From Luteibacter sp. UNCMF331Sha3.1 (GTDB lineage Bacteria > Pseudomonadota > Gammaproteobacteria > Xanthomonadales > Rhodanobacteraceae), in contig NZ_FOBU01000002.1 of NCBI RefSeq assembly GCF_900109915.1, positions 1,443,170 to 1,507,169 of the forward strand: a stretch of 64,000 nt of DNA, read 5' to 3'. The notes below the pieces were generated by a model. It was not told where the DNA came from, did no database searches, and saw only the letters and a program-made list of their open reading frames with translations. The position numbers were made by a program, and so were the translations under genes. Shown in pieces: positions 23,280 through 50,426 of this stretch; position 1 is the stretch's first letter; each line of letters begins with the position of its first letter.

Positions 23280-23293
23280 TTGAGACAGGTCAA
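23280..23293 (-). promoter_or_regulatory. FNR-like box 4 (TTGAGACAGGTCAA)
   Basis: Centre 57.5 bases upstream of the USP start at 23229. It lies just past the stop codon of the response-regulator gene (23300). Confidence 0.65.
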
Positions 23294-27425: not shown

Positions 27426-28573
27426 GGCCATGTGCAAGCCTCCTCGTCGCGGGGCGGCACGAGCACGGCGGCCCCCTGAAAGACTCCGTGGCGGAGATCC
27501 GCAAGCGCATCGTTGGCGGCGGATAGCGGGTAGGACCGCGTGCGAGTGTGCACCGCGCGCGTCGCCGGCGTCGCGAAGAAGCTCCGCGCATCGTCGCGGG
27601 TAAGGTTGGCGACGGAAAGCAGTTCGCGCTCGCCCCATAGCAACCGATACGGGAAGGATGGGATGTCGCTCATGTGGATGCCGGCGCAGACGACCTTGCC
27701 CCCTTTGCGTACGGCACGCAGTGCCAACGGTACGAGCGCGCCATCGGGTGCGAACAGGATCGCCGCATCCAGCGGCGCGGGCGGTGGTTCGTTCGATCCT
27801 CCCGCCCAGCATGCGCCAAGAGCCCGCGCGAACGACTGGGTGGCGATGTCGCCCGGGCGGGTGAAGGCGTAGACGTCGCGCTGCTGCGCCCTGGCGATCT
27901 GCGCCACGATATGCGCCGACGCGCCGAAGCCGTAGAGGCCCAGGCGCCGCGCGTGTCCCGTTCTTGTCAGCGCGCGCCACCCGATAAGGCCAGCGCAGAG
28001 CAGCGGGGCGAGGGCCACCGGGTCCGCATCCTCCGGCAAGGAGACGCAGTACGCTGCCCGCGCGACGATGTGCGTGGCGAAACCGCCGGGACGCGTGTAG
28101 CCCGTGAACGTCGCTTGCCCGCAAAGATTCTCGGCGCCGGCCAGGCAGTCATCGCAACGCTGGCACGTTCCCGCCAGCCACGGCACGCCCATGCGCTCGT
28201 CCACGTGTACGCCGTCGACGCCGGGTCCCACCGCCACCACCCTGCCCACGCATTCGTGGCCAGGAATCACCGGCAGCCTGACCTCGGGCAAGTCGCCATC
28301 CACCACGTGCAGGTCGGTGCGGCACACCCCGCACGCTTCGACGCGCAGGAGCACCTCACCCTCCGACGGTGCCGGCATGGTCAGGCGGCGCGGTACCAGC
28401 GACTCGCCGACACGCTCCAGCACCATCGCGAGCAGCGCGGTTCCTGCGACGTCGCCGCATTCCGTCGCCGTGCGGCCGCATCCGGGCCCACGCGGCCGTG
28501 CAGCGGGTATCTCGCCCTCGACGGGTGATCCCCGAAAGATCCTTAGCGATGGCGTGGCTTCGATACGGACCAT
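27422..28573 (-). CDS. Zinc-dependent alcohol dehydrogenase with N-terminal extension
   Basis: A 383-residue medium-chain dehydrogenase. It has the catalytic-zinc Cys in ACGVCRTD, PGHECVG, a structural-zinc loop with four Cys (CQRCDDCLAGAENLC) and a Rossmann region beginning LGLYGFGAS. The family fold begins near residue 50 (MVLERVGESL), so ~49 extra residues precede it. The long start at 28573 was kept because GGAGGAA stands directly before it, whereas the internal ATG has no ribosome site. It probably interconverts short alcohols and aldehydes for redox balance. First gene after FNR-like box 5. Confidence 0.9.
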   Translation of the reverse strand: MVRIEATPSLRIFRGSPVEGEIPAARPRGPGCGRTATECGDVAGTALLAMVLERVGESLVPRRLTMPAPSEGEVLLRVEACGVCRTDLHVVDGDLPEVRLPVIPGHECVGRVVAVGPGVDGVHVDERMGVPWLAGTCQRCDDCLAGAENLCGQATFTGYTRPGGFATHIVARAAYCVSLPEDADPVALAPLLCAGLIGWRALTRTGHARRLGLYGFGASAHIVAQIARAQQRDVYAFTRPGDIATQSFARALGACWAGGSNEPPPAPLDAAILFAPDGALVPLALRAVRKGGKVVCAGIHMSDIPSFPYRLLWGERELLSVANLTRDDARSFFATPATRAVHTRTRSYPLSAANDALADLRHGVFQGAAVLVPPRDEEACTWP

Positions 28574-28633: not shown

Positions 28634-28647
28634 TTGAGACAGATCAA
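28634..28647 (-). promoter_or_regulatory. FNR-like box 5 (TTGAGACAGATCAA)
   Basis: Centre 67.5 bases upstream of the ADH start (28573). It overlaps the stop codon of the upstream MgtC/DUF4010 gene (28644-28646), so the ADH operon has its own promoter within a run of same-strand genes. Confidence 0.68.
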
Positions 28648-31393: not shown

Positions 31394-32290
31394 TCAGTGG
31401 GAAAAGAGAACGGGAACCGATGCGTGGCGGTACAGGGTTCGCGTCGTTCCGCCGAGGGCCCATCGTCGGACGCGGCTGTGGCCATAACCACCGGCGACGA
31501 TGAGCTGGGCGTGCGAACGGCTCGCGCGCTCCAGGATGGTCTGGCCCATGGGGCGCCCACGGGAACGTTCGACCACGATGCAGCAGGTCACGCCGTGGCG
31601 TTCCAGGTGAGCCGTGATGGCCGCGCCGAACTCGCCCGCCCTTTCCAACGCCGTGGGCGCCGGATCCACCATGAGGACATCCACCCGTTCCGCCCGTCGA
31701 AGCAGGGGCAGCGCGTCGTTCACCGCGCGCATCGCCTGCGGGGCGTGGCTCCACGCGACGATCACGCGTCGCGGTGGTGCCGCCACGAGCTTGAAATCGG
31801 ATGGCACGACGACCACGGGGCGACCCGATTCGATGAGCGTCGTCGCGAAGTGCGTATGCGCCGTGCGCCGATCGGTCGACGCGCTGGACGGGCGCCCCAT
31901 GACGACAAGGTCGGCCCGCCTCGCCTCGCGCGCCGCGGCGACGGCCGACGCGATGCCCATGGCTTCGACGATGCGTGCGGTGACCGCGATACCCTGTTTC
32001 TCGAGCCTGACCTTGAGCGCGGCGCAATAGGCTTCGCCACGCGCGTGCGCATCCGCTACGGCGTCGATACAGGTCATATCGGGCGCAAGCGCCCACACAT
32101 CCGTCGCCGGTGCGGGCACCGGCACCACGCGCGCGATATCCAGCGCGGCGTGGTGCTCGCGCGCCACCAGGCCCGCGAAGCCGCTGGCCACCATGTCCGC
32201 CGGCGACTCCAGCGCCATCAGCAGCACGCGGGTCAGCGCCGTATCCGGTGTCGGGGCTAGCGGCCTGGGATGAAAAGCGGTTTCGACCAT
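31394..32290 (-). CDS. Universal stress protein, two-domain
   Basis: A 298-residue tandem USP starting after CGGAG. Domain 1 (about 15-150) has LMALESPADMVASGFAGLVA; domain 2 has PRRVIVAWSHAPQAMRAVND and the ATP-loop-like AGGYGHSRVRRWALGGTTR, then PVLFSH. First gene of the operon running to 28644 (USP, GNAT-USP, MgtC/DUF4010), with FNR-like box 6 upstream. Confidence 0.9.
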   Translation of the reverse strand: MVETAFHPRPLAPTPDTALTRVLLMALESPADMVASGFAGLVAREHHAALDIARVVPVPAPATDVWALAPDMTCIDAVADAHARGEAYCAALKVRLEKQGIAVTARIVEAMGIASAVAAAREARRADLVVMGRPSSASTDRRTAHTHFATTLIESGRPVVVVPSDFKLVAAPPRRVIVAWSHAPQAMRAVNDALPLLRRAERVDVLMVDPAPTALERAGEFGAAITAHLERHGVTCCIVVERSRGRPMGQTILERASRSHAQLIVAGGYGHSRVRRWALGGTTRTLYRHASVPVLFSH

Positions 32291-32355: not shown

Positions 32356-32369
32356 TTGATCCTCGTCAA
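32356..32369 (-). promoter_or_regulatory. FNR-like box 6 (TTGATCCTCGTCAA)
   Basis: Centre 72.5 bases upstream of the USP start at 32290; it probably drives the USP, GNAT-USP and MgtC/DUF4010 operon. Confidence 0.7.
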
Positions 32370-33978: not shown

Positions 33979-34737
33979 CTAGCGGGCGGTGTATCCCCCG
34001 TCGACGATGAATTCGGCGCCAGTGATGAACGAAGCCTCGTCGGATGCCAGGAACACGGCGCACCAGGCCACCTCATCGGGTGTACCGAGCCTGCCGAGTG
34101 GGTGCAGCGCCGCGATGGCCTGGAATCCCGCTGCCTCGCCAAGGTCCTTTCCCGCCACGAAGCCTTCGACCATGGGCGTACGGATGAAGCCCGGATGGAT
34201 GGAGTTCACCCTGATCCCGTCCTTCGCGTACAACAGCGCATCGGTCTTGGTCATGAGGCGCACCGCACCCTTCGAGGCGTGGTAAGGCGGCACGTCGGGA
34301 GCACTCACCAGGCCATAGATGGACGACAGGTTGATGATGCTGCCCCCGCCGCCGGCACGCATGGCCCCCACGGCGTGTTTTACCCCGAAGAACACGCCCT
34401 TGACGTTGATCCGCTGCACGCGGTCCCACTCGTCTTCGGTGAGTTCGTGCGTCGGCTTGTCCGGACCGGCGATGCCGGCGTTGTTGACGAGGATGTCGAG
34501 CCGGCCATACATCGCACGCGCGTGCCGGATCGCGCCGGCTACGTCCGCCTCGCTGCCGACGTCGGCGTGGATGAAATCGATCCGGCCGCCGTGCGTGGGC
34601 GCATCGACGGGTTCGGGGCGGCATACATCCGCGACGACGACGTCCGCCCCTTCTTCAGCCATGCGGCGCACGCAGGCCGCCCCTATACCCATGGCACCGC
34701 CCGTGACCAGCGCGACCTTCCCACGCAATCGATGCAT
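33979..34737 (-). CDS. Short-chain dehydrogenase/reductase
   Basis: A 252-residue classical SDR with TGGAMGIG, NNAG, the catalytic Ser in NLSSIYG, YHASK, and a C-terminus FLASDEASFITGAEFIVDGG. The N-terminus resembles the 3-oxoacyl/sugar-alcohol dehydrogenase group. ATG 34737 follows GGAG at 7 bases, preferred over TTG 34743. Lead gene of the operon with the OmpA-like lipoprotein and a USP. Confidence 0.9.
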   Translation of the reverse strand: MHRLRGKVALVTGGAMGIGAACVRRMAEEGADVVVADVCRPEPVDAPTHGGRIDFIHADVGSEADVAGAIRHARAMYGRLDILVNNAGIAGPDKPTHELTEDEWDRVQRINVKGVFFGVKHAVGAMRAGGGGSIINLSSIYGLVSAPDVPPYHASKGAVRLMTKTDALLYAKDGIRVNSIHPGFIRTPMVEGFVAGKDLGEAAGFQAIAALHPLGRLGTPDEVAWCAVFLASDEASFITGAEFIVDGGYTAR

Positions 34738-34791
34738 GGCCAATCTCCGTCACTCGATGACGCAAGCATGGCGTCGCCGAAGGTGACGCAG

Positions 34792-34805
34792 TTGATCCAG
34801 GTCAA
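34792..34805. promoter_or_regulatory. FNR-like box 7 (TTGATCCAGGTCAA)
   Basis: Between divergent units: centre 61.5 bases from the SDR start (34737) and 65.5 from the USP start (34864). Confidence 0.72.
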
Positions 34806-34863: not shown

Positions 34864-35757
34864 ATGTCCACGGCACCACGCACGACCCCGGAGCACGCGA
34901 CCGAGCCATCGGCCGCGTGGCGCGATATCGGCAGCCTGGCCGCGCAGTTGCCCTGCGACGGCGCCGCACTGGCAGGCGCCGCGGCCATCGCTGGCGCCAC
35001 CCACGCCCGGATCACCGTTACCCAACTGCTACCCCTGCCGGTCGATACCGCCAGTGCCTGGGCCCTCGCCATGGATCCCATGGTCGCCGAGCGGCATGAA
35101 CGGATACGCCTCGATGCTCGCCGCCAGGCCGACGACATCCGGCATCGGATGGCGGCCTACGCCGTCCCCGGCGATATCACGACGCTCGAATCACTGTTCG
35201 ACGAGCCTGCGAGTCTGGCGGCCATGGCCGCGCGCCGCACCGACATATCGGTGATGGCGCGGCCCTCGGGATCGGTCACGGATGCCGCGTATACCCACGC
35301 CGTTTTTGCCGGGCTGCTGCTTGGCTCGGGCAGGCCCGTGCTCGTCATGCCGGAAGGCAGCAAGTTGGCGTTGCCTGTGAAACATGCCGTCGTGGCCTGG
35401 ACCGATACGTCGCAGGCGACGCGCGCCATGCACGATGCCATGCCGCTGTTGCTGCATGCAGGCGCCGTTGACCTCGTCACCATCGACCCGCCCGCGTCGC
35501 CGCTGGAGAGCCAGGCCAATGCTGGTGACGGCGCGGCCCAGCTCCTGCAGGCGCACGGCATTCCCGTGACCGTGCACCGCATACGCGGCCAGGGGCGTGC
35601 AGCCAGCCAGTTGCTACTGGATCACTGCCGCACCGTGAACGCGGACCTTCTCGTGGCGGGTGGCTATGGGCATGCCAGGTGGCGCGAATGGGCGGTGGGC
35701 GGTACGACGCGTGAGATCTTCTTCGAAACGAGCCTGCCGACATTCTTCGCCCACTGA
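34864..35757 (+). CDS. Universal stress protein, two-domain
   Basis: A 297-residue tandem USP. Domain 1 has DIGSLAAQLPCDGAALAGAA and VMARPSGSVTDAA; domain 2 has KHAVVAWTDTSQATRAMHDA and AGGYGHARWREWAVGGTTR, ending LPTFFAH. It stands alone behind box 7. The 237 bases after it (35758-35994) hold nothing I can support. Confidence 0.9.
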   Translation: MSTAPRTTPEHATEPSAAWRDIGSLAAQLPCDGAALAGAAAIAGATHARITVTQLLPLPVDTASAWALAMDPMVAERHERIRLDARRQADDIRHRMAAYAVPGDITTLESLFDEPASLAAMAARRTDISVMARPSGSVTDAAYTHAVFAGLLLGSGRPVLVMPEGSKLALPVKHAVVAWTDTSQATRAMHDAMPLLLHAGAVDLVTIDPPASPLESQANAGDGAAQLLQAHGIPVTVHRIRGQGRAASQLLLDHCRTVNADLLVAGGYGHARWREWAVGGTTREIFFETSLPTFFAH

Positions 35758-35994: not shown

Positions 35995-36933
35995 TCAATG
36001 CGAAAACAGCACAGGGATAGGGCTCTCAATGAAGAGTTCGCGCGTCGTCCCACCCAGGGCCCACTCGCGAAGCCGGCCGTGCCCATAGCCCCCGGCCACG
36101 AGCAGTTGCGCATGCCGCCGCGTCGCCTGCCTGAGCAAGGTATGCCCGACGCTGGACCCACGCGACGAGCAGGTGACGAGGTGCGTGCGAGCACCATGCG
36201 CGCGCAGATGGGCCATGACGTTCGCGGCCGATGCAAGCAGAGGGTCGCTTTCGTTCGACGTGACATCCACGATCACGATATCGACCGTCTCCGCGCCTTC
36301 CAGCAACGGCATCGCGTCGTGCAAGGCGCGGGCGGCCTCGGCGGTTTCGGCCCATGCCACGCTGATCGCGCCAGGCGGGAAGCTCGCAGTCGTGCCTTCC
36401 GGCACCACCAGCACCGGGCGGCCCGATTCGAGCAGCAGCGCGGCGAAATACCGGTGCGCCGCACGCGCCTGCGAGGCCGAGCCGGTGGGGCGTCCCATCA
36501 CTACCAGGTCCGCATGTCGCGCCGATGCCGCGGCCACTGTACCTGGCGCGTGATGGAGCGCCTCGAGAGTGCGGACTTCGCCCTGCACGTCCCGCCCGGC
36601 GAGCATCCGGCTGAACTCGCCAGCACGCTCCGCCGCTTCCCGGCGCAACCGTGCATGGCGCTCCACGCGTGCCGGATCCGGAATCAGCGCCCACGCATCC
36701 GCGGCGGTCACGGGCATGGCCAACACTTGCACGACATCGAGGCGACCCCGTGCGCGACGAGCCAGGCTCGCCGCCACCTCGACTGCGAGGGTATCGCCGG
36801 ACAGGTGCGACACCACGGCCGTGATGTCGCGAAACGCCCGGAGCGCGTCAGGCGGTTTCTCGCCGGTCTCGCTGCCCAAGCTGCGCCACTCGAGCGCATC
36901 CGCAGGATCTTGCCTGAACATGTTGTCAGCCAT
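35995..36933 (-). CDS. Universal stress protein, two-domain
   Basis: A 312-residue tandem USP starting at ATG 36933 after GGAGG (the frame is open to 37008, through box 8). It has FRDITAVVSHLSGDTLAVEV, a middle VVMGRPTGSASQARAAHRYF, a second domain AISVAWAETAEAARALHDAM, the loop AGGYGHGRLREWALGGTTR, and PVLFSH. Divergent from the USP at 37071. Confidence 0.9.
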   Translation of the reverse strand: MADNMFRQDPADALEWRSLGSETGEKPPDALRAFRDITAVVSHLSGDTLAVEVAASLARRARGRLDVVQVLAMPVTAADAWALIPDPARVERHARLRREAAERAGEFSRMLAGRDVQGEVRTLEALHHAPGTVAAASARHADLVVMGRPTGSASQARAAHRYFAALLLESGRPVLVVPEGTTASFPPGAISVAWAETAEAARALHDAMPLLEGAETVDIVIVDVTSNESDPLLASAANVMAHLRAHGARTHLVTCSSRGSSVGHTLLRQATRRHAQLLVAGGYGHGRLREWALGGTTRELFIESPIPVLFSH

Positions 36934-36994: not shown

Positions 36995-37008
36995 TTGATG
37001 CCGATCAA
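36995..37008. promoter_or_regulatory. FNR-like box 8 (TTGATGCCGATCAA)
   Basis: Between divergent USP genes, almost equidistant: centre 68.5 bases from the 36933 start and 69.5 from the 37071 start. Confidence 0.74.
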
Positions 37009-37070
37009 TAAAACGGGCAGAGGGTCGGACGACGATGCACGGGTGTACCGCGAAAACTCCGGGAGTCGTC

Positions 37071-37946
37071 ATGTTCAGCCACATCCTGCTTGCCATCGAT
37101 ACGCCGGAAGGCATGGCCAACGCCGCGCGACTCGCCATCGATCTGGCGGCCCGGCTTGGTGCCACGCTTTCCGTACTCCATGTCGTGACCGACGATGTCG
37201 CCGTGCCCGCTGTATCGGCGGAAGCGCGTGCGACGGCGCCGCCGAACATCGAATTCGACGCGCTGCGCGACATGGCTCGCGCGAGCGGCGTGGCATGCGG
37301 GTGTGAACGCGTCAGCGATGGCACGCCCGCCCGCGCTATCGACGCTTACGCCGTCGCGAACGGCTGCGACCTGATCGTCCTGGGCACGCACGAACGAGGT
37401 GGCCTCAAGCGCGCGATTCTGGGAAGCCAGGTAGACAAGCTGCTGCGACGCTCCCACGTTCCGGTGCTCGTTTGCCCGCAACAGGGCGATTTCGCCATCC
37501 ACCGCGTCCTCGTGCTCGTGGACGACTCCGACGCATCCCGTCATGCCGTCGATGTATGCATGGAACTGGCTTCGATACTCGGCAGCCACGTGTACGCGTT
37601 GCTCGTGCTCTCACCGCTGCCCTCGGTGAACCTGCTGGCGGACTATCTCCAGGGCAACATCCATTTCAGGCACCTGACGGGCCGTGCCGAGCGGCTACTC
37701 GAAGGCATCAGGGCCCAGGCGAAATCGGCGGGTGTCGCGGTGTCCACCGAATACACCTTCGACCGCCGTCCCGATACGGTCGTTACCGCGCGTGCCTGCA
37801 CGCACCGCTGCGACCTCGTGGTGCTGCCCCGCCATGGTCACGCGCCGCACCACACGCTGTTCCACGACCTCACGGAACTTTGCGCCATGGCGGCCGAGAC
37901 ACCGGTGCTCGTATGCCCGCAGCCGGTGGACCAGCCGGTGGCCTGA
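37071..37946 (+). CDS. Universal stress protein, two classical UspA domains
   Basis: A 291-residue protein of two UspA-type halves. Half 1 (FSHILLAIDTPEGMANAARL) has the loop GTHERGGLKRAILGSQV; half 2 (IHRVLVLVDDSDASRHAVDV) ends PVLVCPQ. It belongs to a different subfamily from the GGYGH-type long USPs around it. ATG 37071 follows GGGAG; the frame extends to 37035. The BON-protein gene follows 64 bases later. Confidence 0.9.
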   Translation: MFSHILLAIDTPEGMANAARLAIDLAARLGATLSVLHVVTDDVAVPAVSAEARATAPPNIEFDALRDMARASGVACGCERVSDGTPARAIDAYAVANGCDLIVLGTHERGGLKRAILGSQVDKLLRRSHVPVLVCPQQGDFAIHRVLVLVDDSDASRHAVDVCMELASILGSHVYALLVLSPLPSVNLLADYLQGNIHFRHLTGRAERLLEGIRAQAKSAGVAVSTEYTFDRRPDTVVTARACTHRCDLVVLPRHGHAPHHTLFHDLTELCAMAAETPVLVCPQPVDQPVA

Positions 37947-38010: not shown

Positions 38011-38673
38011 ATGAACGATATCCAGCTGCGTCAGGACATCATCGAAGAACTCGATTTCGAACCAGGCATCGACGCAAGAAGCATCGGCGTATCCGTCGCC
38101 GATGGCGTGGTGACACTCAACGGCCATGTGCCCAGCTACTCGCAGAAGGTGGATGCGGAGAAAGTCGTATGGCGGATCAAGGGCGTCAAGGCTCTCGCCC
38201 AGGAACTGGAAGTGCGCCTGCCCGAAGACGCCAAGGTGAACGACGACGAGATCGCCACGCGTGCGGCGAGAATCATCGCCTGGAGCGCCTCCGTACCCCC
38301 CGATGCCATCCACGTGAAGGTCGCACGCGGTTGGGTGACGCTTTCCGGCACGGTGGACTGGCACTTCCAGCGGTTCGCCGCCGAAGCAGCAGTAAGGCGG
38401 CTGACCGGTATCCATGGCGTGATCAACAACGTGCAACTGCGCCAGGCGGTGAAGCCCGAGAACGTGCGCGACAAGATCAAGGAAGCGCTGCGCCGGCATG
38501 TCGATGGGGAGGCCTCGCGGATCCGTATCGATGTGGCGTCCCCGGGAGAAGTCACGCTCGAAGGGGATGTCGGGGATTACGAGGAACGTCGCGCGATCGA
38601 GCGCGCGGCCTGGGCGATACCCGGTGTGCGCACCGTCCACGACAAACTGAACATTCAGTGGCACAGCGTCTGA
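38011..38673 (+). CDS. Triple BON-domain protein (OsmY-like, no signal peptide)
   Basis: A 220-residue protein with three BON repeats: about 5-70 (LRQDIIEELDFEPGIDARSI, VTLNGHVPSYSQKVDAEKVV), 75-145 (VKVARGWVTLSGTVDWHFQR) and 150-218 (IRIDVASPGEVTLEGDVGDY). BON domains bind phospholipid surfaces and are typical of osmotic/envelope stress proteins such as OsmY. No export signal is visible, so it appears cytoplasmic. Probably co-transcribed with the USP upstream. Confidence 0.9.
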   Translation: MNDIQLRQDIIEELDFEPGIDARSIGVSVADGVVTLNGHVPSYSQKVDAEKVVWRIKGVKALAQELEVRLPEDAKVNDDEIATRAARIIAWSASVPPDAIHVKVARGWVTLSGTVDWHFQRFAAEAAVRRLTGIHGVINNVQLRQAVKPENVRDKIKEALRRHVDGEASRIRIDVASPGEVTLEGDVGDYEERRAIERAAWAIPGVRTVHDKLNIQWHSV

Positions 38674-38803: not shown

Positions 38804-39688
38804 TCAGTGCTGCACGAACACCGCGATGTCCATCTTCGTCGCACCCAACACATGGTGTGTCGTGCCGCCCAGCAGCCGCTCGCGCAACGGCGCATGCCCG
38901 TAGGCGCCCATGACCAGCAGATCCGGCTTGAGTCGGCTCACGCGCGAGAGCAGCTGCGGCCCGTCGAGCCCATGGCCGGGAAGGTGTTTACGGACGACGG
39001 TGACGCCATACCGTTCGAGGAAGCGGACCGGATCGAAGCGCGGGGTCACCGGCTTGCCGGCGCTCCCATCGAGCAGGTACACGTCGCGAGCGGCCACGAT
39101 CAACGGCAGGGCCGAGCGCAAGGCGCGCGTGGCCGGGCCACTGCCGTCGTACGCGATCACCACCCGGTCGTGGGTAGCGCCGGGGGCGCAGGGCGTCGGC
39201 AGTATCAGGACCGGCAGGTGCGCATGCAGCGCAAGCTCATCCAGCCCACCCAGGGGCTTTCCCTTTACAGCGGCGACGCGCTGTACCACCACGAGGTCGT
39301 GCCAGCTGCAGAGCTCCCTCAGCCCGGCGAGGTAGTCGCTGCCGAGCACGGCCCATCGCGGGTCGCAAGCGCCTGCCATCAGCGACTCGCGAATGAATTT
39401 GTCGCCCGCATGCGGCGCTGGCGGCTCGTCGCCGCGTCGAGGCCGCGGGGATTTCTCCAGCAGCGCCATGACCGTGGGCTCGCCGCCGTGGAGCCGGCCC
39501 TGGCGAAAGCTATCGGGCATCGCGCAGCCGGTGACGCTGCCGCGGCCGCGCGCGGCGAGGCGGCATCCCACCAGGGTCGCGGCCTCGCATGCCGGATCGG
39601 CAATCACCAGCACATCGCCCACAGCCGGCAGGGCAGCCTGGGTCCGGAGCGCGGCGCCATCCATGACGGCGAGGGTCAACGTAGACAT
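38804..39688 (-). CDS. Universal stress protein, two-domain
   Basis: A 294-residue tandem USP starting after GGAGG. The first half is divergent (VGDVLVIADPACEAATLVGC); the second has HDRVVIAYDGSGPATRALRS and the loop MGAYGHAPLRERLLGGTTHH, ending DIAVFVQH. Divergent from the Crp/Fnr gene with box 9 between. Confidence 0.88.
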   Translation of the reverse strand: MSTLTLAVMDGAALRTQAALPAVGDVLVIADPACEAATLVGCRLAARGRGSVTGCAMPDSFRQGRLHGGEPTVMALLEKSPRPRRGDEPPAPHAGDKFIRESLMAGACDPRWAVLGSDYLAGLRELCSWHDLVVVQRVAAVKGKPLGGLDELALHAHLPVLILPTPCAPGATHDRVVIAYDGSGPATRALRSALPLIVAARDVYLLDGSAGKPVTPRFDPVRFLERYGVTVVRKHLPGHGLDGPQLLSRVSRLKPDLLVMGAYGHAPLRERLLGGTTHHVLGATKMDIAVFVQH

Positions 39689-39744: not shown

Positions 39745-39758
39745 TTGATACCGGTCAA
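39745..39758. promoter_or_regulatory. FNR-like box 9 (TTGATACCGGTCAA)
   Basis: Centre 63.5 bases from the USP start (39688) and 115.5 from the Crp/Fnr start (39867). It suits activation of the USP and possibly autoregulation of the regulator. Confidence 0.68.
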
Positions 39759-39866
39759 TTCGGCGAGCCGCGCACCGTTACACACCGTTACATCGCGATA
39801 CGGACGCGTCATCGCCCCGGCGTCCCGCCGTCGTAGGCTGAGCCTGGTTTCCGGGGAGAACATGCC

Positions 39867-40562
39867 ATGTGCCTGCCGCAGACATCGCTTGATGACAGCC
39901 GCTTCGATATCTCCTTGCCATCCCTCGTAAAGGCGGTAGGCCCCGAAGGCACGCTGCGCCGCCGCTGTCACGCGGGGCAACCGCTTTATCGCCAGGGTCA
40001 ACCGTTCCACGCGCTGTACGTCGTGGAAACCGGGTCGTTCAAGATCCGCGATCTGGCCGAAGACGGCAGGGAGAAGGTGTCCGCGTTCAAGCTCCGCGGC
40101 GATCACCTCGGCATGGAGTCGATCGGACTGGCCCAATACGCCTGCGACGCCGTCGCCCTGGAGGAGAGTTCGTGCTGGGAGGTGTCGTACGAACTGGCGC
40201 TGCGGGCCGCTGCGCGGGCCGCGCCACTGCAGGCCGAACTGAACGCCGTGCTGGCCAGCGAAATCCGGTCCGCCGCTGGCTGGATGCTCACGCTCTCGAC
40301 CCTTGCCGCCGATTCGCGCGTCGCGGCATTCCTCGTCCACATGTCCCGACGCTACGCCGCGCTCGGGCAGAGATCCCAACACATCGCCCTGCGGATGAGC
40401 CGTCTCGACATGGCAAGCTTCCTTGGCCTGAAGCACGAAACGGTCAGTCGCGCGCTCGGCCATCTCGCCGATTCACGCTACATCGCCGTGTCTCGCCGCG
40501 AGGTGGATGTGCTGGATCCGGGTGGCCTCGCGCAGTGCGCCACCGCCGCCATCGCGGCATAG
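39867..40562 (+). CDS. Crp/Fnr-family regulator, FNR-type DNA reader without Fe-S cluster motif
   Basis: A 231-residue protein with a cyclic-nucleotide-binding-fold sensor (about 25-140: GQPLYRQGQPFHALYVVETG) and a Crp HTH (about 160-220). The recognition helix HETVSRALGHL has E191, S194 and R195, the E..SR pattern with which FNR/ANR reads TTGAT. The sensor lacks the FNR N-terminal CxxCx5C cluster: only C2, C34, C93 and C103 are present, C103 aligning near FNR C122. It is therefore more like DNR/FixK-type members, sensing something else. ATG 39867 follows GGGGAG at 8 bases. It is the natural candidate to bind the nine boxes of the island. Confidence 0.9.
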   Translation: MCLPQTSLDDSRFDISLPSLVKAVGPEGTLRRRCHAGQPLYRQGQPFHALYVVETGSFKIRDLAEDGREKVSAFKLRGDHLGMESIGLAQYACDAVALEESSCWEVSYELALRAAARAAPLQAELNAVLASEIRSAAGWMLTLSTLAADSRVAAFLVHMSRRYAALGQRSQHIALRMSRLDMASFLGLKHETVSRALGHLADSRYIAVSRREVDVLDPGGLAQCATAAIAA

Positions 40563-41511: not shown

Positions 41512-41706
41512 TCACAACAGGGGTGCCAGCCTGCCGGAGACCCATTCGGCCGTTTTCCGGTTTCGTACCTGGCGTGCGGTCAGCGCGACGAACCTTCCCG
41601 ACGCGTCGCGCACGCGCACGGCGCAGGCCCGTGGATGGGTCGCCGCGGCCCGGTCGTAGTCGCGAAGCATCGCCTCGCGCACATCGTGCGGGGTATCAGC
41701 CACCAT
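41512..41706 (-). CDS. Hypothetical small protein downstream of ndvB
   Basis: A 64-residue soluble product (MVADTPHDVREAMLRDYDRA, then VRVRDASGRFVALTARQVRN). Its start lies inside the last codons of ndvB (11-base overlap), so it is translationally coupled to the glucan synthase. I know no function for it. Confidence 0.6.
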   Translation of the reverse strand: MVADTPHDVREAMLRDYDRAAATHPRACAVRVRDASGRFVALTARQVRNRKTAEWVSGRLAPLL

Positions 41707-44700
41707 GAGGCACCGCCGGACGGTAGACGCACATCACCCGATGTTCGGCATCGTCGTCGGTCAACGGGATGCTGTCGCCCTCGACCGCCTCGCCATCGAG
41801 CGTCAACGACGCCGGTTCGCCCTCGCCGGCGCGTCGCAAGGCGATTGCGTACGTCGACGAACCGTGTCGATAGGCGACCGAATAACCATCCCACGCCGCC
41901 GGCACGCACGGGACGATGGACAACCGGCCGTCGACGAGCGAGATGCCGAACAGTGATTCGATCAACAGGCGATACATCCAGCCCGCCGATCCCGTGTACC
42001 ACGTCCACCCGCCGCGACCCACGTGCGGCTCCACCGCATAGACGTCGGCAGCGAGCACGTACGGTTCGACCTTGTACGTAGCGATCGAGGTCGCGGTCGA
42101 CGTATGACTCGACGGAAGGATCATCCGCGCCAGGTCCCACGCGTGCTCGGTCTCGCCCAGGCGGGCGAACGCCATCGTGACCCATACCGCCGCATGGGTG
42201 TACTGGCCACCGTTCTCCCGCACGCCGGGCAGATAGCCCTTGATGTACCCGGGATCCATCGCCGTTCTGTCGAACGGCGGGTCGAGGAGCTGGACAAGGC
42301 CCGCCTCCGGGCGGACGAGGTGCCTGTCGACCGAACGCATGGCTTCGCGCGCACGGCTGTCCGGCGCGCCGCCGGAAAGTACCGACCAGCTCTGGGCCAC
42401 CGCGTCGATCCGGCATTCGTCGTTCGCGGCGGATCCGAGCGGCGTACCGTCGTCGAACCATGCGCGGAGGTACCACTCGCCGTCCCACGCGTGGGCCTCG
42501 ACGCTGGCAGCGAGCCGCTTCGCTTCGGCGTCACAGTGCGCGGCGAACGTCCCGTCGCCGCGTCCCGCCGCGACCGGCGCAAACGCGCGAAGGACGTGCA
42601 TGAGGAAGAAGGCCAGCCAGACGCTCTCCCCCTTCCCGCCTTCGCCCACCCGGTTCATGCCATCGTTCCAGTCGCCGCCGCCCATCAGCGGCAGCCCATG
42701 TGATCCACGCGACATCGCGTGCTCGAGTGCGCGCACGCAATGCTCGTACAGCGTTTCCCGCGTGCCCGATGCCCTAGGAAGATCGTAAACGGACTCCTCG
42801 CCAGGCCTCGGCGCACGCATCTCGATGTATTCGATCACCTCGTCGAGCACCGCGGCGTCGACGGTCGCACGGACGTAGCGGCTCGCGGCGAGCGGCAGCC
42901 AGAGGAAGTCGTCCGAACACGTGGTGCGTACGCCCCTGCCCGAGGGAGGATGCCACCAGTGCTGGACGTCGCCTTCGATGAACTGTCGCCCCGCGCAGGT
43001 CAGAAGTTGTGCCCGTGCCACGCCGGGATCGGCATGTAGCACCGCCATCGAGTCCTGCAGCTGGTCGCGGAAACCGATCGCACCGCCGGACTGGTAGTAC
43101 CCGCTGCGAGCCCAGATCCTGCTCGCGATGGTCTGATACAGGAGCCAGCCGTTCGCGAAGACGTCGACGGCGGGCTCGGGGCTGCGTACCTGCACCGCAC
43201 CGATCAAGGCGCGCCACCGCGCACTTACCTCGGCCAGTTCGCGGGCGGCGGCGCCATCCTGGCGGTAGCGTTGCACGAGATCGCGTGCCTCGGATTCGCT
43301 GTCACCCATGCCGAGCCGGAAGACGATGTCGCGCGATTCCCCCGGTGCGAGACGCACGCTGACGCGCAGCGCGCCACACGGGTCGAGTCCAGCGCCGACC
43401 CTGTTGCTCCATCCTTGCCGACGCAGGGCAAGCGGCGACGACGCTCGGCCGTTCCGGCCGAGGAAGTCGCCGCGGTCGCCACCGATCTCGCGATCGGCGT
43501 CGCCTACGTCGAAGAAAGCGACCCGGCCGGGAAAATCGCCGTTATAGGCGTTTCGCGCGAACAGCGCGCCCGTCGTCGGATCGATGTCGGTCACCACGTG
43601 CATGGCGTTCTTCTCCCGGATATCGCCGAGCACCCATTCCACGTAGCCCGTCGCGGTGAGAAGCAGCTCCACCGGTCCCTCGTTGGTGATGCTGAGCACC
43701 TGGAACTTCAGCGGCGCGTCGCGTGCGACGAAGACTTCCAGCCGCGTCGCCACACCCCGTTCGGCATGCTCGAACACCGTGTACCCGAACCCGTGGCGCG
43801 TGGTGTAGGTGCCCTCCCCTCGCATGGGCAGGGGCGATGGCGACCACGCGTGGCCCGTGGCTTCGTCCCGGAGGTAGAGGGCTTCGCCACTGGCATCTTC
43901 CACCGGATCGTTCTGCCATGGCGTCAGGCGGCAGCCATGGGCATTGCCCGACCACGTATACGCGCTGCCGCTTTCCGACACGACGCTGCCGAAGCCCGGG
44001 TTGGCGAGCACGTTGCACCACGGGGCCGGCGTGGTGGCCCCCCGCCCCGACGTGATCACGTACTCCGTGCCGTCGGCGGAGAACCCGCCGGTGGCCTGCG
44101 TCGCGACGAACGGCGCCTCGGCAACGCGCGGCAGCCAGCCCACAGGGTCGGCGATCGTCGGCGCGGGAACCATGCGATGACGCTCCATCTGCTCCTGCAG
44201 GGAGCCGAGCGTGTCCACGACGACGATGCGCGCACTGGCTTCCATGACGAGCCGGTCCTCGTACGACAGAGGCTGCGCCGCCCGGATGTACACGCCACCC
44301 GGGCGATCCAGGAGGCTCGCCTCGGCACCCGACGCGAGCAACCCGATCAGCGCGTCGTGCAGGGCCTGTCGATACCCGGTGCTGTCTTCGTTCCAGATCA
44401 CCAGGTCCACGGCGAGTCCGCGAAGTCGCCAGTAAGCGGCGGCGCGGATGAGGTCGCGGGCGATGTCGAGGCGGGCGATGTCGCCGATGCGGAGGAGCAC
44501 GATCGGCAGGTCGCCCGAGACAGCCTGCCCCCAGAGTCCCGATTGGCCTCGCGTGTTCGCGGCGATCATCGACGGCGCGGTGCGCATCGCCCGGTTCGCG
44601 TAGATGATCGACGTGGCCATGTGCTCGAACAGCTGGGCATCCGCGAGCGTCGCGTTGGCCTGGCGGAGCGTCACCTGACTATGCGTCCAGGCGAGATCGA

Positions 44701-47700
44701 ACACGCGATCGGAGAGATGGCGATCACGGTATTTCTCGATCAGGCGCATGCACTGGGCGCGGTCGTCCCCGATGCCCGTGACGAAGTCGAGCGTCGCCGT
44801 CTGTTCGGGTTCGAGGGTGATGCGCACGCGGATGGCGGCGATGGGATCCAGCACCGGGCCGGCGGTGCCGCTGAGCAGGCGACTCCCCGGCGCGAGCGCG
44901 GCGGGATCGGCAGCGTTGCGGCCACGGCCGATGAAGCGTGCCCGGTCGGTTTCGTAGGAGATCTCGTCGATGTCCGCATCGTGCACGGCGACGAGATGAC
45001 ACGCCCATGGCGGCTTCTCGCCGGCGGAGCGACCGCGGCGCGTGCACAGCAGCGCCTGCATCGACGCGACGATCTCGGTGGTGACGAAGAGCTTGCTGAA
45101 CGCCGGATGCGCCGTGTCGCTGGCGGGGTCGGCGAGCACCAGTTCGGCGTAACTGGTGAGTTCGACGGTGCGCCGGGTCTTGTGGCGGTTCGTGATCCGC
45201 GTACGGCGAAGCTCGATGTCGTCTTCCGGCGACACCACGATCTCCGTATGCGTCTCGAAGCCGCGCTGGCGGACACGGAATTCGGCGCGCGACTCGGCGA
45301 AGATGGCCTCGAAGCGATCCGTGTCCCGCATCGTCGGCTGATAGGCGGTGCTCCAGACCTCGTCGTTCGACGGATCGCGCAGGTAACAGAACATGCCGTG
45401 GTTATCGCGCGTGATGTCCTCTCGCCAGCGTGTGACCGCCATGGCGTCGCGACGGCTGTAGCCGCCACCGGCGCTGCTCACCATCACGTGGTAACGCCCG
45501 TTGGAAAGCAACTGCACGGCCGGTCGGGGACGATTCGGATCGGTGAACAGGCGGAGTCGCGATTCGGGTGCCGCGGCCTGTTGCGTACTGTCTCCCATGC
45601 CCGTATGCCGGAGGTATTCGCTCGAGGAAAGGGGGAGCCGCTCCTGCAGCAGAAGACTCGTGGCCATCACGTTGGGATCGGCCTCGAACCGGCGCTGCAT
45701 CGGCCGGTCGAGCAACGCGTGCCCGATCGCCAGAAGCGACATGCCCTGGTGGTGCGACATGTACGACTGCACGATCGCCGCGTCCTGCCCGGGCCGCAGG
45801 CGCGCCGGCGTGTAATCGAGCGCTTCGTACAAGCCGTAACGGCCCGCCATCCCCGCCTCGCTGAGTCGCCACAGGTTGGCGGTGGCCGCCGCGGGCGACA
45901 CCATCAGCGCGAGCGCCGTCGCGTACGGCGCGACGACGAGATCGTCGCCCAGTCCGCGCTTCAGACCGAGACCGGGCACGCCGAACGCCCGGTACTGGTA
46001 AGTCATGCCCGCATCGACGGCGTGGTAGCCCGATTCGGACACGCCCCAGGGCACGCCGCGCTGCCTGCCATAGTCCATCTGTCGCGCGACGGCGTTGCGC
46101 ATGGTCTCGTCGAGGAGGCTGCCCTCGTAGGTCGGCATCACCAGCATCGGCATCAGGTATTCGAACATCGAGCCCGTCCAGGACAGGAGCACCGGCAGGC
46201 CCTGCGCCCTCGTCAGCAGACGGCCGAGCGAGAACCAGCTTTCCTGTGGCACCTGGCCCTGTGCGATCGCGACGAACGTCGTCAGGCGCGCTTCCGATGC
46301 GAGGAGGTCGTAGAACGACACGTCGAGCACATGCCGTTCTACGTCATAGCCGATCGAGAACAGCCGCCGCTGCTCGTCGTACATGAAAGCCTGGTCCATC
46401 ACCGCGAGGTTTCCCGCGATCGCCGCGGCGTCGTTCAGCGCGGCGATCCGCGAGCGGGCGCGCTCACCGCGCGCCGTGCCGGTTTCCGCGGCCAGCTCGG
46501 CCAGCGATGGGAGCGACGGCGTACCCAGAATGTTGCCGCTCCAGCACGACGCCTCGGCCACGAGGTCGTCGCATTGCGCCACGAGCCGACCCAGCCAGAA
46601 CGCGGCATCGTCGGACGGGACGTTTTCAAGCACCGTACGCAGGGCTTCCGCACGAAGGCGTTGGTCCTCCGCGAAGGCCAGCACTTCGCCCGGGGAAGCG
46701 GGCGGCGCATCCGCCGCGCTGGCGAGTGCGTGCGCCCAGACGCGCCATTCGGACGGTGGCGCGGTGGTCAGCACATCGGCCAGCACGTCCAGCGTGTCGC
46801 GCAGCCCGCCGATCGATTCGCGTCGGAACACGGGTTCGTTCACGAGGCCGAGCAGGCCTTGCCTCAACGTCATGAGGTGGCCAGCGAGATTCCCGCTATC
46901 GACACTGGACACGTAGCGCGGATGCAGCGGCTGCAGCGTCTCCGTGTCGTACCAGTTGAGGAAGTGGCCGCGGTACCGTTCCAGCAGCCCGAGTGTCGCG
47001 AGCGTCGCCTCGGTGCGCTCGAGGAGGCGACCGGTACCGAGATAACCGAAGTCGTACGCGGCGAAGCCGGCCAGGAGCCCCAGACCGATGTTGGTGGGGG
47101 ATGTCCGTCTCGCCACGTGCGGCTGCGGCACCATCTGCAGATTGTCGGGCGGCAGCCCGTGGTCGCTGGGGCCACCGTGCACTTCGAAGAACGCCCACGT
47201 GCGCCGCGCAAGCTGCCGCAAGAACGAGAGATCAGCCTCATCGGGAACGAAACGGCGGCTCGCCGGCGCGCGGCTGAGCCACCACGCGATCACGGGCGAG
47301 GCTGCCCAGAGCATCAGCCAGGGCGACGCCACGGCGATGGCGAGCGGGCGCGCGAAAGCAAGGAGCGCGAAAACCGAAACGGCCGATACCGGACCGGGCC
47401 ACATGGCGAGCCACGCCACACGATGTCGATGGCGTCCCTGCCTGGCCACGACACCCGACGAGCGCCATTCGAGAAGGTGCCGGCGGCTGACGGCGATACG
47501 CCAGACGGAACGGACCATCGCGTCCAGCCCCGAATACGCATCGTGGGGCAGCGACGCGATTGCTATCGCGAGTCGCAATGCATGGGCGCCCGACGCGGTC
47601 AGCGCGACGTGGCCCTGCTGGCGCCAGTCGATGTCGCGGGGTTTGCGGACGGCCTCCATGAACGCCTGCAGGAGGATGGGGAGCAGCGCCATGGAAAGCA

Positions 47701-50212
47701 CCGCCAGCGTCCAGGTCACGAGCGGCGTCATCGCGAGCCAGCCGACGACCAGCAGTAACCACGTGGCCGCAGGCACGAGGCTGCGGCGCAGGTTGTCGAA
47801 GATCTTCCATCGGGACAGGCCGCTGAGATCGTTGCGTCGCCACTTCCCCGCGGTCGGCACCATCGGGAGCAGCCATGGCAGCAGCTGCCAGTCGCCTCGC
47901 ATCCAGCGATGGCGCCGCTGGCTCTCGTCGAGATAGCGGTCCGGCGTGCCTTCGAACACGAGCACGTCGCTGAGCAACGCGGAACGTGCCACGCAGCCCT
48001 CGATCAGATCATGGCTGAGCACGCGCTCGGGGCGGAAACGGTCGGCCATCGCGTGCTCGAACGCATCGACGTCGTAGATACCCTTTCCGGTGAAGGAGCC
48101 TTCGTGGAAGAGATCCTGATACACGTCAGACGTCGCTTGCGTATACGGGTCGACGCCCGCGTCCGCGCCATAGAGGCGCGCATGCAGCGACCGTGCCTGG
48201 GCCGGAAGCGCGATACCGATGCGCGGCTGCATGATGCCGTAACCCGACGTGACCACGGAATGCGCGGCGTCGAACACGGGCCGGTTCAGCGGATGATCCA
48301 TGGCGCCCACCAGGAGATGTGCCGCATCGCGCGGCAGGTGGGTGTCGGTGTCCAGCGTGATCACGTAACGGATGGGCGGCAGGTGCGCGAGGTCTCCCAC
48401 GACGAGCTGGAAACGTCCCCGCCCCTGCCCCCGCAACAACGCGTTCAGCGCCGCGAGCTTGCCGCGCTTGCGATCCGCGCCGATCCAGCACTGCTCGGTG
48501 TCGCTCCACTCCCGCGGCCTGTGGAACAGGAAGAACAGGTCGGGACCGCCGGACGCGTAGCGTGCGTTCAGCGCGTCCACGCGATCGCGTGCACGCTGGA
48601 GAATCGCCGGATCTCCAGGCAACGACGGGGCCATGGCGTCGGTGAAGTCGGTGAGGAGCGCGAACCGCAGGCAGGCGTCCCGGTTGGCGAGAAACCTGAT
48701 CTCGAGCGCGTCCACGAGCTCGTCGACATCGCCCGGATGGCCGATCAGCGTCGGCACGACCACCATCGTGCTCGCCTCGACCGGGATGCCCTCGCTGTAG
48801 TCCATGCGAGGAAGCCGATCGGGACGCGTCAGCACCGTGGCGGCGAGATTCAGCAGCCCGAGCGCGAACTGGCTTGCGAGGATGGCCGCGGCGACAGCCA
48901 GGATGACGATCGGTACAGGGCTGGGGCGCTCGAACGAGCCGCTGGCCAGCAGCGCCGTGGTCAGGGCGAGCGTAAGGCCAGCGAAGAGCACGATGGAGAG
49001 GCGAAAGGTCGACCGCGACACCGAAGCGCCGTCGCGGTCGACTCGCGATGCCCGGAACCCCAGTCTTCGCCGCAAAGCTGGCAGGCCGTCGCCGTGGAGG
49101 TGGTAACCGACATGCAAGGAAAGTCCCTGCCCGGCCCGGCTCGCGTCGAGCACGGCATGTGCCACGTGCACTTCGTCGAGCCCTTTCTTTCGCGCGAGGC
49201 GCTCGATCCGATGGCGATAGTCGTCGCGGCTGGCGAAATCCATCCGTGCATAGACGCCGGCCGGATCGTCCCGCAAGGCGGCGTCGACGAGGCTCGTCCG
49301 TTCGACGAGCGCCTGCCAGTCGATCATCGCAAGGGCGCGCAGGCTGCCGATGCTGTTGCTCATCGACACCTGCTGGGCGGCCTGCTGCTGCGATTCCTTC
49401 TGGACGAGGTAGTCGATGCTCTGCCCCGATTCCGCGAGGCGTTGCTCCACCCAGCTCAACGGCATCGCGAGCGCGGGCCCCTGTCCCTGCAACCGCCGCA
49501 CGAGTTCGGCGACGAAAGGCGCGGTCATCACCGGGGACGACCGGGCGAGATCGGCCACGACGAGCACCACGTTCTTCGCGTCTTCGGCCGCCATTCGTGT
49601 CATCGCGTTCGCCCATCGCGTGGCGCGCCTTCTTCCCGCGCGATCGAGGGTCAGGCGAACGGCGATGCGACGCAGGTTTTCGATCAGGGCCATGCGCAGC
49701 ATGATCGGCACGGCCCACAGCTCGCCGAGGCTCAGCGACGTCACGGTCTGGTAGCTCGTGAGGAACCGAGCGAGCCCGCTCTCGTCGACGCGGCCGTCGC
49801 CGTGGGCGATGACCTCCAGCGCGATATCGTAGACACGCGGCAGCCCTCTGGAGGGTCCATCGTCGAGCTGAACCAGTTCGCGACTGTACCCGTCAGGGAA
49901 ATCGCGTTTCGCGGTGCCGATCTGCTCTTCGACGAGGTAGAGGTTGTCCAGAAGCCAGATGCCCGCGGGCGTCGTCGCCTCACCGCGCGCGCCAGCGGCC
50001 AACAGCCCGCGACAGGCGTCCAGGATCGTCTTCTCGTTGTCGGCCAGCCTTGGCAGGAGCCACTCGGGGGAACGTGTCGACGCGATGTGGTGACGAGCTG
50101 CGAGGACGGGCCCGTGCGCTTCCAGCTGATCGGCGTTGAACAGTTCGGCACGGATCACGGGCTCGCGCTCGATGCGCGCGGCATGGCGTCGGTCGCGTTT
50201 GGCGGGCAGCAT
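41696..50212 (-). CDS. ndvB: Cyclic beta-1,2-glucan synthase (NdvB/Cgs type)
   Basis: A 2838-residue inner-membrane enzyme, matching the ~2830 residues usual for the family. N-terminal domain ~1-400; membrane helices about 405-460 and 840-1000; GT84 glycosyltransferase between them with the TLDTDTH metal site (about 619). A glycoamylase-like domain follows at about 1290-1500 (MPTYEGSLLDETM, GVSESGYHAVDAG, YQYRAFGVPGLGLKRGLGDD). The GH94 phosphorylase repeats run to the end, with the catalytic Asp in GGGDWNDGMN (about 2511). In Rhizobium and Brucella it polymerises UDP-glucose on itself, trims length by phosphorolysis and cyclises; the product is an osmoregulated periplasmic glucan needed for host interaction. 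ATG 50212 was preferred over TTG 50215. Confidence 0.95.
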   Translation of the reverse strand: MLPAKRDRRHAARIEREPVIRAELFNADQLEAHGPVLAARHHIASTRSPEWLLPRLADNEKTILDACRGLLAAGARGEATTPAGIWLLDNLYLVEEQIGTAKRDFPDGYSRELVQLDDGPSRGLPRVYDIALEVIAHGDGRVDESGLARFLTSYQTVTSLSLGELWAVPIMLRMALIENLRRIAVRLTLDRAGRRRATRWANAMTRMAAEDAKNVVLVVADLARSSPVMTAPFVAELVRRLQGQGPALAMPLSWVEQRLAESGQSIDYLVQKESQQQAAQQVSMSNSIGSLRALAMIDWQALVERTSLVDAALRDDPAGVYARMDFASRDDYRHRIERLARKKGLDEVHVAHAVLDASRAGQGLSLHVGYHLHGDGLPALRRRLGFRASRVDRDGASVSRSTFRLSIVLFAGLTLALTTALLASGSFERPSPVPIVILAVAAAILASQFALGLLNLAATVLTRPDRLPRMDYSEGIPVEASTMVVVPTLIGHPGDVDELVDALEIRFLANRDACLRFALLTDFTDAMAPSLPGDPAILQRARDRVDALNARYASGGPDLFFLFHRPREWSDTEQCWIGADRKRGKLAALNALLRGQGRGRFQLVVGDLAHLPPIRYVITLDTDTHLPRDAAHLLVGAMDHPLNRPVFDAAHSVVTSGYGIMQPRIGIALPAQARSLHARLYGADAGVDPYTQATSDVYQDLFHEGSFTGKGIYDVDAFEHAMADRFRPERVLSHDLIEGCVARSALLSDVLVFEGTPDRYLDESQRRHRWMRGDWQLLPWLLPMVPTAGKWRRNDLSGLSRWKIFDNLRRSLVPAATWLLLVVGWLAMTPLVTWTLAVLSMALLPILLQAFMEAVRKPRDIDWRQQGHVALTASGAHALRLAIAIASLPHDAYSGLDAMVRSVWRIAVSRRHLLEWRSSGVVARQGRHRHRVAWLAMWPGPVSAVSVFALLAFARPLAIAVASPWLMLWAASPVIAWWLSRAPASRRFVPDEADLSFLRQLARRTWAFFEVHGGPSDHGLPPDNLQMVPQPHVARRTSPTNIGLGLLAGFAAYDFGYLGTGRLLERTEATLATLGLLERYRGHFLNWYDTETLQPLHPRYVSSVDSGNLAGHLMTLRQGLLGLVNEPVFRRESIGGLRDTLDVLADVLTTAPPSEWRVWAHALASAADAPPASPGEVLAFAEDQRLRAEALRTVLENVPSDDAAFWLGRLVAQCDDLVAEASCWSGNILGTPSLPSLAELAAETGTARGERARSRIAALNDAAAIAGNLAVMDQAFMYDEQRRLFSIGYDVERHVLDVSFYDLLASEARLTTFVAIAQGQVPQESWFSLGRLLTRAQGLPVLLSWTGSMFEYLMPMLVMPTYEGSLLDETMRNAVARQMDYGRQRGVPWGVSESGYHAVDAGMTYQYRAFGVPGLGLKRGLGDDLVVAPYATALALMVSPAAATANLWRLSEAGMAGRYGLYEALDYTPARLRPGQDAAIVQSYMSHHQGMSLLAIGHALLDRPMQRRFEADPNVMATSLLLQERLPLSSSEYLRHTGMGDSTQQAAAPESRLRLFTDPNRPRPAVQLLSNGRYHVMVSSAGGGYSRRDAMAVTRWREDITRDNHGMFCYLRDPSNDEVWSTAYQPTMRDTDRFEAIFAESRAEFRVRQRGFETHTEIVVSPEDDIELRRTRITNRHKTRRTVELTSYAELVLADPASDTAHPAFSKLFVTTEIVASMQALLCTRRGRSAGEKPPWACHLVAVHDADIDEISYETDRARFIGRGRNAADPAALAPGSRLLSGTAGPVLDPIAAIRVRITLEPEQTATLDFVTGIGDDRAQCMRLIEKYRDRHLSDRVFDLAWTHSQVTLRQANATLADAQLFEHMATSIIYANRAMRTAPSMIAANTRGQSGLWGQAVSGDLPIVLLRIGDIARLDIARDLIRAAAYWRLRGLAVDLVIWNEDSTGYRQALHDALIGLLASGAEASLLDRPGGVYIRAAQPLSYEDRLVMEASARIVVVDTLGSLQEQMERHRMVPAPTIADPVGWLPRVAEAPFVATQATGGFSADGTEYVITSGRGATTPAPWCNVLANPGFGSVVSESGSAYTWSGNAHGCRLTPWQNDPVEDASGEALYLRDEATGHAWSPSPLPMRGEGTYTTRHGFGYTVFEHAERGVATRLEVFVARDAPLKFQVLSITNEGPVELLLTATGYVEWVLGDIREKNAMHVVTDIDPTTGALFARNAYNGDFPGRVAFFDVGDADREIGGDRGDFLGRNGRASSPLALRRQGWSNRVGAGLDPCGALRVSVRLAPGESRDIVFRLGMGDSESEARDLVQRYRQDGAAARELAEVSARWRALIGAVQVRSPEPAVDVFANGWLLYQTIASRIWARSGYYQSGGAIGFRDQLQDSMAVLHADPGVARAQLLTCAGRQFIEGDVQHWWHPPSGRGVRTTCSDDFLWLPLAASRYVRATVDAAVLDEVIEYIEMRAPRPGEESVYDLPRASGTRETLYEHCVRALEHAMSRGSHGLPLMGGGDWNDGMNRVGEGGKGESVWLAFFLMHVLRAFAPVAAGRGDGTFAAHCDAEAKRLAASVEAHAWDGEWYLRAWFDDGTPLGSAANDECRIDAVAQSWSVLSGGAPDSRAREAMRSVDRHLVRPEAGLVQLLDPPFDRTAMDPGYIKGYLPGVRENGGQYTHAAVWVTMAFARLGETEHAWDLARMILPSSHTSTATSIATYKVEPYVLAADVYAVEPHVGRGGWTWYTGSAGWMYRLLIESLFGISLVDGRLSIVPCVPAAWDGYSVAYRHGSSTYAIALRRAGEGEPASLTLDGEAVEGDSIPLTDDDAEHRVMCVYRPAVPHGG

Positions 50213-50426
50213 CAATGTCCCGCCGGGTGAGACGTTGTGGGGCTCATGAGTGAATCCTGCTGCGAGGCAACGAGCGCCCGGAATCGCATCCTCACATGCA
50301 ACGCGTTATGCGAACGCGAGGGACGCCGTGCACATCCTCGTCACGGCAGGCCAACGCGAAAATACGACCGTCATCACGTGGCACGTGCCATCGTCGATGG
50401 AGTAAACACATCCCACGGTGCGCGCC

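Follow-up and report, generated by a model that had tools for sequence, protein, structure and literature searches.

The regulator encoded at 39867-40562 of the window (the whole 64,000-nucleotide stretch of Luteibacter sp. UNCMF331Sha3.1 analysed here) is, on a reading of the sequence that we hold with reasonable but incomplete confidence, a class II activator descended from FNR that has no Fe-S ligands and would form the last tier of a relay resembling FixLJ-FixK. By computation, the ligands are lost, no canonical FNR is found in this genome, FNR-type boxes occur in clusters and at class II spacing from -10-like elements, an operator with fixed promoter geometry precedes the regulator gene, and the linkage of this gene to a kinase and response regulator pair is conserved.

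The initial annotation had called the open reading frame 39867-40562 (+) an FNR-like DNA reader, and the gene is evidently real: its 231-residue product exceeds the Pfam cut-offs for both cNMP_binding and HTH_Crp_2, its composition is coding-like, and orthologs with 54-61% identity are present in seven genus mates. The recognition helix reads HETVSR and thus has the E..SR residues of FNR type, as had been stated. The best NCBIfam model is Fnr (NF008365), at 112.5 bits and so below its cut-off of 228, while the curated FixK model (Caulobacter type) gives 70.7 bits, below its cut-off of 300; all 14 proteins of our set A1 (the window protein and 13 others) match NF008365. Both a sequence search and a Foldseek search with the predicted structure (mean pLDDT 85.7) place A. 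fischeri FNR closest among solved structures, followed by FixK2. FNR structures match with an E-value of 1.3e-28 by sequence and a fold TM score of 0.95 by target length, and the DNR structure 3dkw is a weaker sequence match (E 9.5e-12).

The N-terminal CxxC motif is missing, as first noticed, and the fourth ligand is also gone, with Trp104 in its column and Cys103 one residue off. Each of the three N-terminal ligand columns holds Cys in 30 of 31 Fe-S-type rows of the alignment, and in 2, 0 and 2 of the 62 rows of the regulator's clade; the second column is a gap in all 62 clade rows, four rows have a stray Cys at the first or third column, and the pattern CxxC-x2-8-C occurs in none. The fourth-ligand column (Cys122 of E. 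coli) is Cys in all 31 Fe-S-type rows and in none of the 62 clade rows, 54 of which have Trp there. A second tryptophan, Trp139, is invariant in the clade (62/62).

In a tree of 74 rows, 46 clade rows, including two from Variovorax, form one branch (SH-aLRT 96), and rooting with a Clp-like outgroup places the clade next to betaproteobacterial Fe-S FNRs in a 58-row branch with support of 92, in a tree built by a quick method and with a very long outgroup branch. From the set for this tree, 25 entries were dropped as near-duplicates or as too short. Because the clade falls beside the betaproteobacterial Fe-S FNRs, the tree suggests that the cluster-less proteins descend from an FNR ancestor that lost its ligands. 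Matches from B. multivorans, Paraburkholderia and Mycetohabitans were rejected as clade members since they keep N-terminal Cys motifs, as was a Cupriavidus match (a partial translation) that keeps the fourth Cys.

The lineage of the window itself deviates from the rest of the clade: its regulator lies on a long end branch (1.03), residue 136 is Ala, residues of its kinase are changed, and the kinase pair is relocated. Residue 136, where 57 of 62 clade rows have Asp, corresponds to Asp154 of FNR, the position at which chain 9qlt, titled D154A, differs from other FNR chains. The available text of PMC4214427 describes D154A FNR as a permanent dimer that is active in air, and by carry-over the window regulator might be a permanent dimer of the same kind.

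For comparison between loci we took the best 80 among 220 relatives retrieved, a set that includes at least 9 of 13 relatives examined separately and that splits into 61 Cys-less and 19 Fe-S-type loci. The relatives were retrieved with an alignment as query; a single-protein search of genome contigs confirmed none. Counts given below for 60 Cys-less loci (box fit and operator) exclude L105 and L130, which have too little upstream sequence, and add the window. The loci share ancestry and therefore their counts are not independent events. Identical contexts were counted once in the palindrome and spacing, operator-alignment and per-box -10 counts.

The sequence TTGA-N6-TCAA occurs nine times in the window, always within 16327-39758, and 23 times in the genome compared with 11 for the reversed pattern. 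A consensus scan allowing up to two mismatches, which is weaker taken alone, found 17 sites where 9.2 were expected, and 1 of 100 shuffles scored as high. Near the ortholog in all 13 relatives there are 2-11 boxes compared with 0.03-0.23 expected (40 kb around each ortholog; 26.5 kb for G036), and the 61 Cys-less loci together hold 261 boxes, compared with 0-19 for 23 other palindromes and 0-12 for other spacers, controls that rule out chance occurrence. TTGAYNNNNRTCAA sites number 13-24 in the seven genus mates with an ortholog and 1-16 in the 12 without. The 19 Fe-S loci hold 40 boxes, so the boxes in themselves do not set the Cys-less clade apart. Position 5 of the box is T or C equally often (241 each of 506), which gives the site as TTGAY-N4-RTCAA.

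Examining the distance from box to promoter, we found that the -10-like pattern xAxxxT is most frequent at 21 and 22 bp past the box, in 112 and 100 respectively of 505 orientations (the other distances from 8 to 39 give 5-32), a spacing that, judged from sequence, is as for class II activation. The pattern is loose, with a random rate of 0.055 per direction, and was found at 21 or 22 bp in at least one tested direction for 192 of 252 distinct boxes and for eight of the nine boxes in the window. Most window boxes stand before genes for universal stress proteins (Usp). Box 1 (16327-16340) is upstream of a Usp gene, box 2 (18301-18314) of Usp gene 18388-19284, box 3 (22291-22304) of Usp gene 22361-22867, box 4 (23280-23293) of a Usp gene ending at 22849 (-), and box 6 (32356-32369) of Usp gene 31394-32290 (-), with TATACA, which has no last T, at 21 bp. 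Box 5 (28634-28647) precedes an ADH-like gene (27422-28573, -), behind which stand genes for an MBL protein, a kinase and a response regulator; box 7 (34792-34805) lies between an SDR gene (33979-34743, -) and a Usp-like gene (34864-35757, +); and box 8 (36995-37008), the sole perfect TTGATNNNNATCAA in the genome, lies between Usp genes 35995-36933 (-) and 37071-37946 (+), both PF00582. The latter is a tandem Usp gene, and we set its start, within a PF00582 frame of 37035-37946, at a start codon downstream of box 8. The island also encodes a P-type cation ATPase (19297-21828, +), a BON-domain protein (38014-38673, +; PF04972 in three stretches) and, divergent from the regulator, a further Usp (38804-39688, -; PF00582). 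Fourteen of the genome's 18 Usp matches lie in the island, and two genus mates without the ortholog have four each. The proposal that a reader of FNR sites without cluster ligands controls this island is thus supported by the clustering of boxes and by their apparent class II spacing.

An arsenic-type group (ArsC, FMN reductase, ArsB and an ArsR-like HTH; 13338-16314) forms the left border of the island, and directly to its right is an open frame of 2839 residues (41696-50215, -) that we take to resemble the cyclic glucan synthase/phosphorylase type. A further box, TTGACCTCCATCAA, lies 22 bases before the window (1443148-1443161 of the contig) and is followed 21 bp on by TCTAAT and then by a PAP2-family gene (59-691, +), which, because box and TCTAAT lie far from the island, may be an outlying target.

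The regulator had also been proposed to control itself through box 9 (39745-39758), and this part of the initial annotation is not supported. Box 9 suits only the promoter of the divergent Usp gene (38804-39688), with TACCGT at 21 bp on the minus side and no -10-like element at 21 or 22 bp towards the regulator, so we rejected it as a class II autoregulatory site. When the box closest to the regulator was assessed in the 60 Cys-less loci, it suited the divergent gene alone in 29, the regulator alone in two, both in four and neither in six (this fit allowed 21-23 bp, while the per-box count above allowed 21-22); the other 19 lack a box within 450 bp of the regulator.

What does stand before the regulator is a tandem of GTTAC repeats with a 10-bp period (39777-39801, +), located between box 9 and the start codon and probably a response-regulator site. 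An exact GTTACN5GTTAC occupies 39777-39791, the third copy reads GATAC, and the -10-like TAGGCT of the regulator promoter (39834-39839, +) begins 57 bp after the operator's first G. Upstream of the regulator, 57 of 60 Cys-less loci have a GTTA tandem with a spacing of 10 or 11 bp, as against none of the 19 Fe-S loci, and of 74 exact GTTACN5GTTAC copies on both strands of the Cys-less set, 70 are within the 420 bp before the regulator. The three loci without a strict tandem are L090, L111 and L139, in the first two of which a GTTGC variant can be seen by eye. The 55 distinct operators align to GTTACa.ac.GTTACa.a.cGTTgC, and TAnnnT stands at exactly +57 in 43 of them, the window included. We also considered GTTAC as a general repeat: the exact pattern occurs three times in the genome (once for the reversed pattern), the two other copies being L171 and L172, and no TRF tandem array was found in 16000-42000.

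The likely source of an input through this operator is a pair of genes within the island. An OmpR-type response regulator (23300-24022, -) has Response_reg and Trans_reg_C domains, with OmpR and TorR as best NCBIfam models, below cut-off. Overlapping it, a hybrid histidine kinase (24015-25979, -) has, by Pfam, PAS, a second sensor-like domain, HisKA, HATPase and a receiver. In the window the pair is about 14 kb from the regulator and so is not adjacent, but it is inside the island, behind the box at 28634. Elsewhere in the clade, orthologs of the pair adjoin the regulator in convergent orientation at 54 of 61 Cys-less loci, and at none of the 19 Fe-S loci, using thresholds of our own choice (38% and 200 bits; 45% and 150 bits). 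The remaining Cys-less loci have the kinase only (two), the response regulator only (one) or neither (four); L099, L122, L128 and L131 run up to a contig edge or close to one. Both orthologs are within the examined stretches of all 13 separately studied relatives, and in two Variovorax records the trio recurs alongside Usp, BON, phbB and MBL genes, joined in one of them by a phosphoketolase gene. A mobilizable Cupriavidus plasmid (L176) carries a Usp/ADH/BON cluster and a CRP-type regulator together with a PAS kinase and response regulator pair of another build.

As to what the kinase may sense, its PAS domain is closest, by sequence and structure matches, to 10jx (titled as a haem-binding PAS), FixL and DosP. 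The His of the FixL motif RSRH binds haem, and His64 of the kinase PAS aligns with it, a His being present in all 54 ungapped kinases. The position of FixL Arg220, located through 1y28 (titled R220A), is Arg in the window kinase alone, 46 of 56 kinases having Tyr or Gln there, and when the model of the sensor region is used as query, many phytochromes come up as well; for both reasons, haem is an unsure assignment. The window kinase departs from the clade at residues 67 and 84, with Leu in place of a His kept in 53 of 54 ungapped kinases and with the Arg at the FixL Arg220 position. The Variovorax kinase has a Pfam GAF domain; Pfam gives none in the window kinase, whose predicted model has a second alpha/beta domain there.

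These features bear on the question of whether the regulator senses anything itself. It might, like DNR or through oxidation as in FixK2, respond directly to NO, haem, a nucleotide or redox state and govern the island alone. Its cNMP-fold domain might accommodate a ligand, 48 of 62 clade rows have Cys93, and the excerpted account of FixK2 (PMC9104804) has it modulated by oxidation of one Cys. Cys93, however, is equally common in the Fe-S rows (28/31), Cys103 is peculiar to the window protein, and a conserved operator and a linked kinase pair already supply an input. We consider this explanation unlikely. The operator and pair would provide an input without any call for a cofactor in the regulator, which is thus probably not a lone sensor, and the suggestion that it is master of the island stands as regards island control, with "master" then meaning the last tier of a cascade.

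Alternatively, some other factor may read the GTTAC repeats, the kinase pair being a mere neighbour with other targets. L109 keeps the operator with no pair within its 20.6 kb, and such a tandem is missing before 51 of 55 response-regulator genes. The operator was also considered as the promoter of the response-regulator gene, upstream of which it was found in 4 of 55 cases. Counting against the relay itself are L109 and, conversely, L090 and L111, where the pair occurs with no strict tandem, together with the separation of the pair from the regulator in the window and the sites still present in genus mates with no ortholog; conserved linkage, besides, does not amount to binding. Against a separate reader, operator and pair are both near-universal in the clade (57/60 and 54/61) and absent from the 19 Fe-S loci, and L139 has neither strict tandem nor pair. 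Moreover, the four other exact operator copies, in the Tahibacter-type loci L129, L132, L133 and L135, are situated between the gene for the response regulator and one divergent from it that, in L132 and L135, begins like a Usp by sequence likeness. Since the operator there also faces the divergent gene, the response regulator may have direct targets of its own. Direct repeats of 10 bp suit OmpR/TorR-type proteins, and among the papers listed for OmpR/TorR-type repeats there was no direct match. On balance, a different reader seems improbable.

Finally, relatives such as G004 and G022 hold an additional FNR that scores higher on the Fnr model, but control by a canonical Fe-S FNR elsewhere is refuted here unless the assembly misses a gene, and is very improbable: the search for one that the initial annotation had called for, which combined three family searches with a protein search of this 4.12-Mb Luteibacter-group genome (99.97% complete), found none, and the Fnr model added none. 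The genome has three cNMP domains and two Crp-HTH proteins, namely this regulator and one judged Clp-like. Among other carriers of the ortholog, the Fnr model gives only the ortholog and a Clp-like match in G002 and G009, and these plus one weak partial match of 21.9 bits in G030, with no canonical FNR in any of the three.

The favoured relay would work in steps. The hybrid kinase, with its haem-type PAS, would sense a signal, most likely low O2, and phosphorylate the OmpR-type response regulator, which would bind the GTTAC repeats upstream of the -35/-10 region and switch on the regulator gene. The Cys-less FNR would then accumulate, dimerise without a cluster, bind TTGAY-N4-RTCAA near -41.5 and activate, rather than repress, the Usp and stress genes of the island. 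Its regulon perhaps includes the kinase pair behind the box at 28634, which would amount to feedback.

In the open-licence literature we found no description of such a relay, or of an Fnr/Usp system, in Luteibacter, Rhodanobacter or Xanthomonadales or in a context of Usp and phosphoketolase, which is a weak basis for calling the relay undescribed. It is, in our judgement, an even call whether an undescribed three-tier relay, from haem-type PAS hybrid kinase to OmpR-type regulator on GTTAC repeats to cluster-less FNR to class II Usp regulon, extends across Xanthomonadales and some Variovorax, remains the sole FNR-type system in several Luteibacter and in Rudaea, and has built the FixLJ-FixK logic a second time. 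That this logic was built again, from a different response regulator and a former FNR, would be suggested by the relay being the only FNR-type system in several Luteibacter genomes and Rudaea. If true, the case would illustrate how a protein that once sensed oxygen can give up the chemistry for doing so and serve as an output module, with a kinase assuming the sensory role. It would also put names to an operator, a response regulator and a regulon for survival of stress or low oxygen in a large group of bacteria that live in soil or with plants, giving a handle on Usp islands.

Usp islands in Burkholderia (lxa) and Mycobacterium (DosR) have been tied to survival without oxygen, according to the excerpted text of PMC6127331. 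The lxa locus of Burkholderia cenocepacia, as described in the available parts of PMC6127331 and PMC9104464, is Usp-rich, induced at low O2 and discussed as being under an FNR-type regulator; it is the nearest known Usp island to ours, the comparison being one of whole loci. Unlike the window island, its named regulator BCAM0049 (Anr2/FixK) lies outside lxa, and the same sources describe strain H111 as lacking lxa. E. coli and A. fischeri FNR are the nearest solved relatives of our regulator, with the same half-site and a class II spacing; the window protein shares the E..SR residues and would share the TTGA...TCAA sites, but differs in having neither the N-terminal nor the fourth cluster ligand.

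FixK, named in the initial annotation as one of two precedents, turns out to be the better one, being an FNR-type activator without Fe-S ligands. Rhizobial FixLJ-FixK2 is a cascade whose two-component tier turns on an activator of CRP/FNR type with no Fe-S sensor (PMC9104804, as excerpted), and the system proposed here resembles it in its two-component input to a cluster-less CRP/FNR activator, its FixL-related haem-type PAS and its FNR-like boxes. The response regulator, however, is OmpR-type (Trans_reg_C), not FixJ-type with a LuxR-like HTH; the kinase, unlike FixL, is a hybrid with a C-terminal receiver; and the regulator, unlike FixK, is nearer the Fnr model (112.5 vs 70.7 bits) and has predicted targets that are mostly Usp genes. 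Burkholderia FixLJ-fixK, as presented in the accessible text of PMC5234846, provides low-O2 control in a non-nitrogen-fixing proteobacterium, and likewise places an FNR-type regulator gene under two-component control, though through a FixJ with a LuxR-type HTH; a GTTAC tandem and a Usp island, as found in the window, are not evident in that text.
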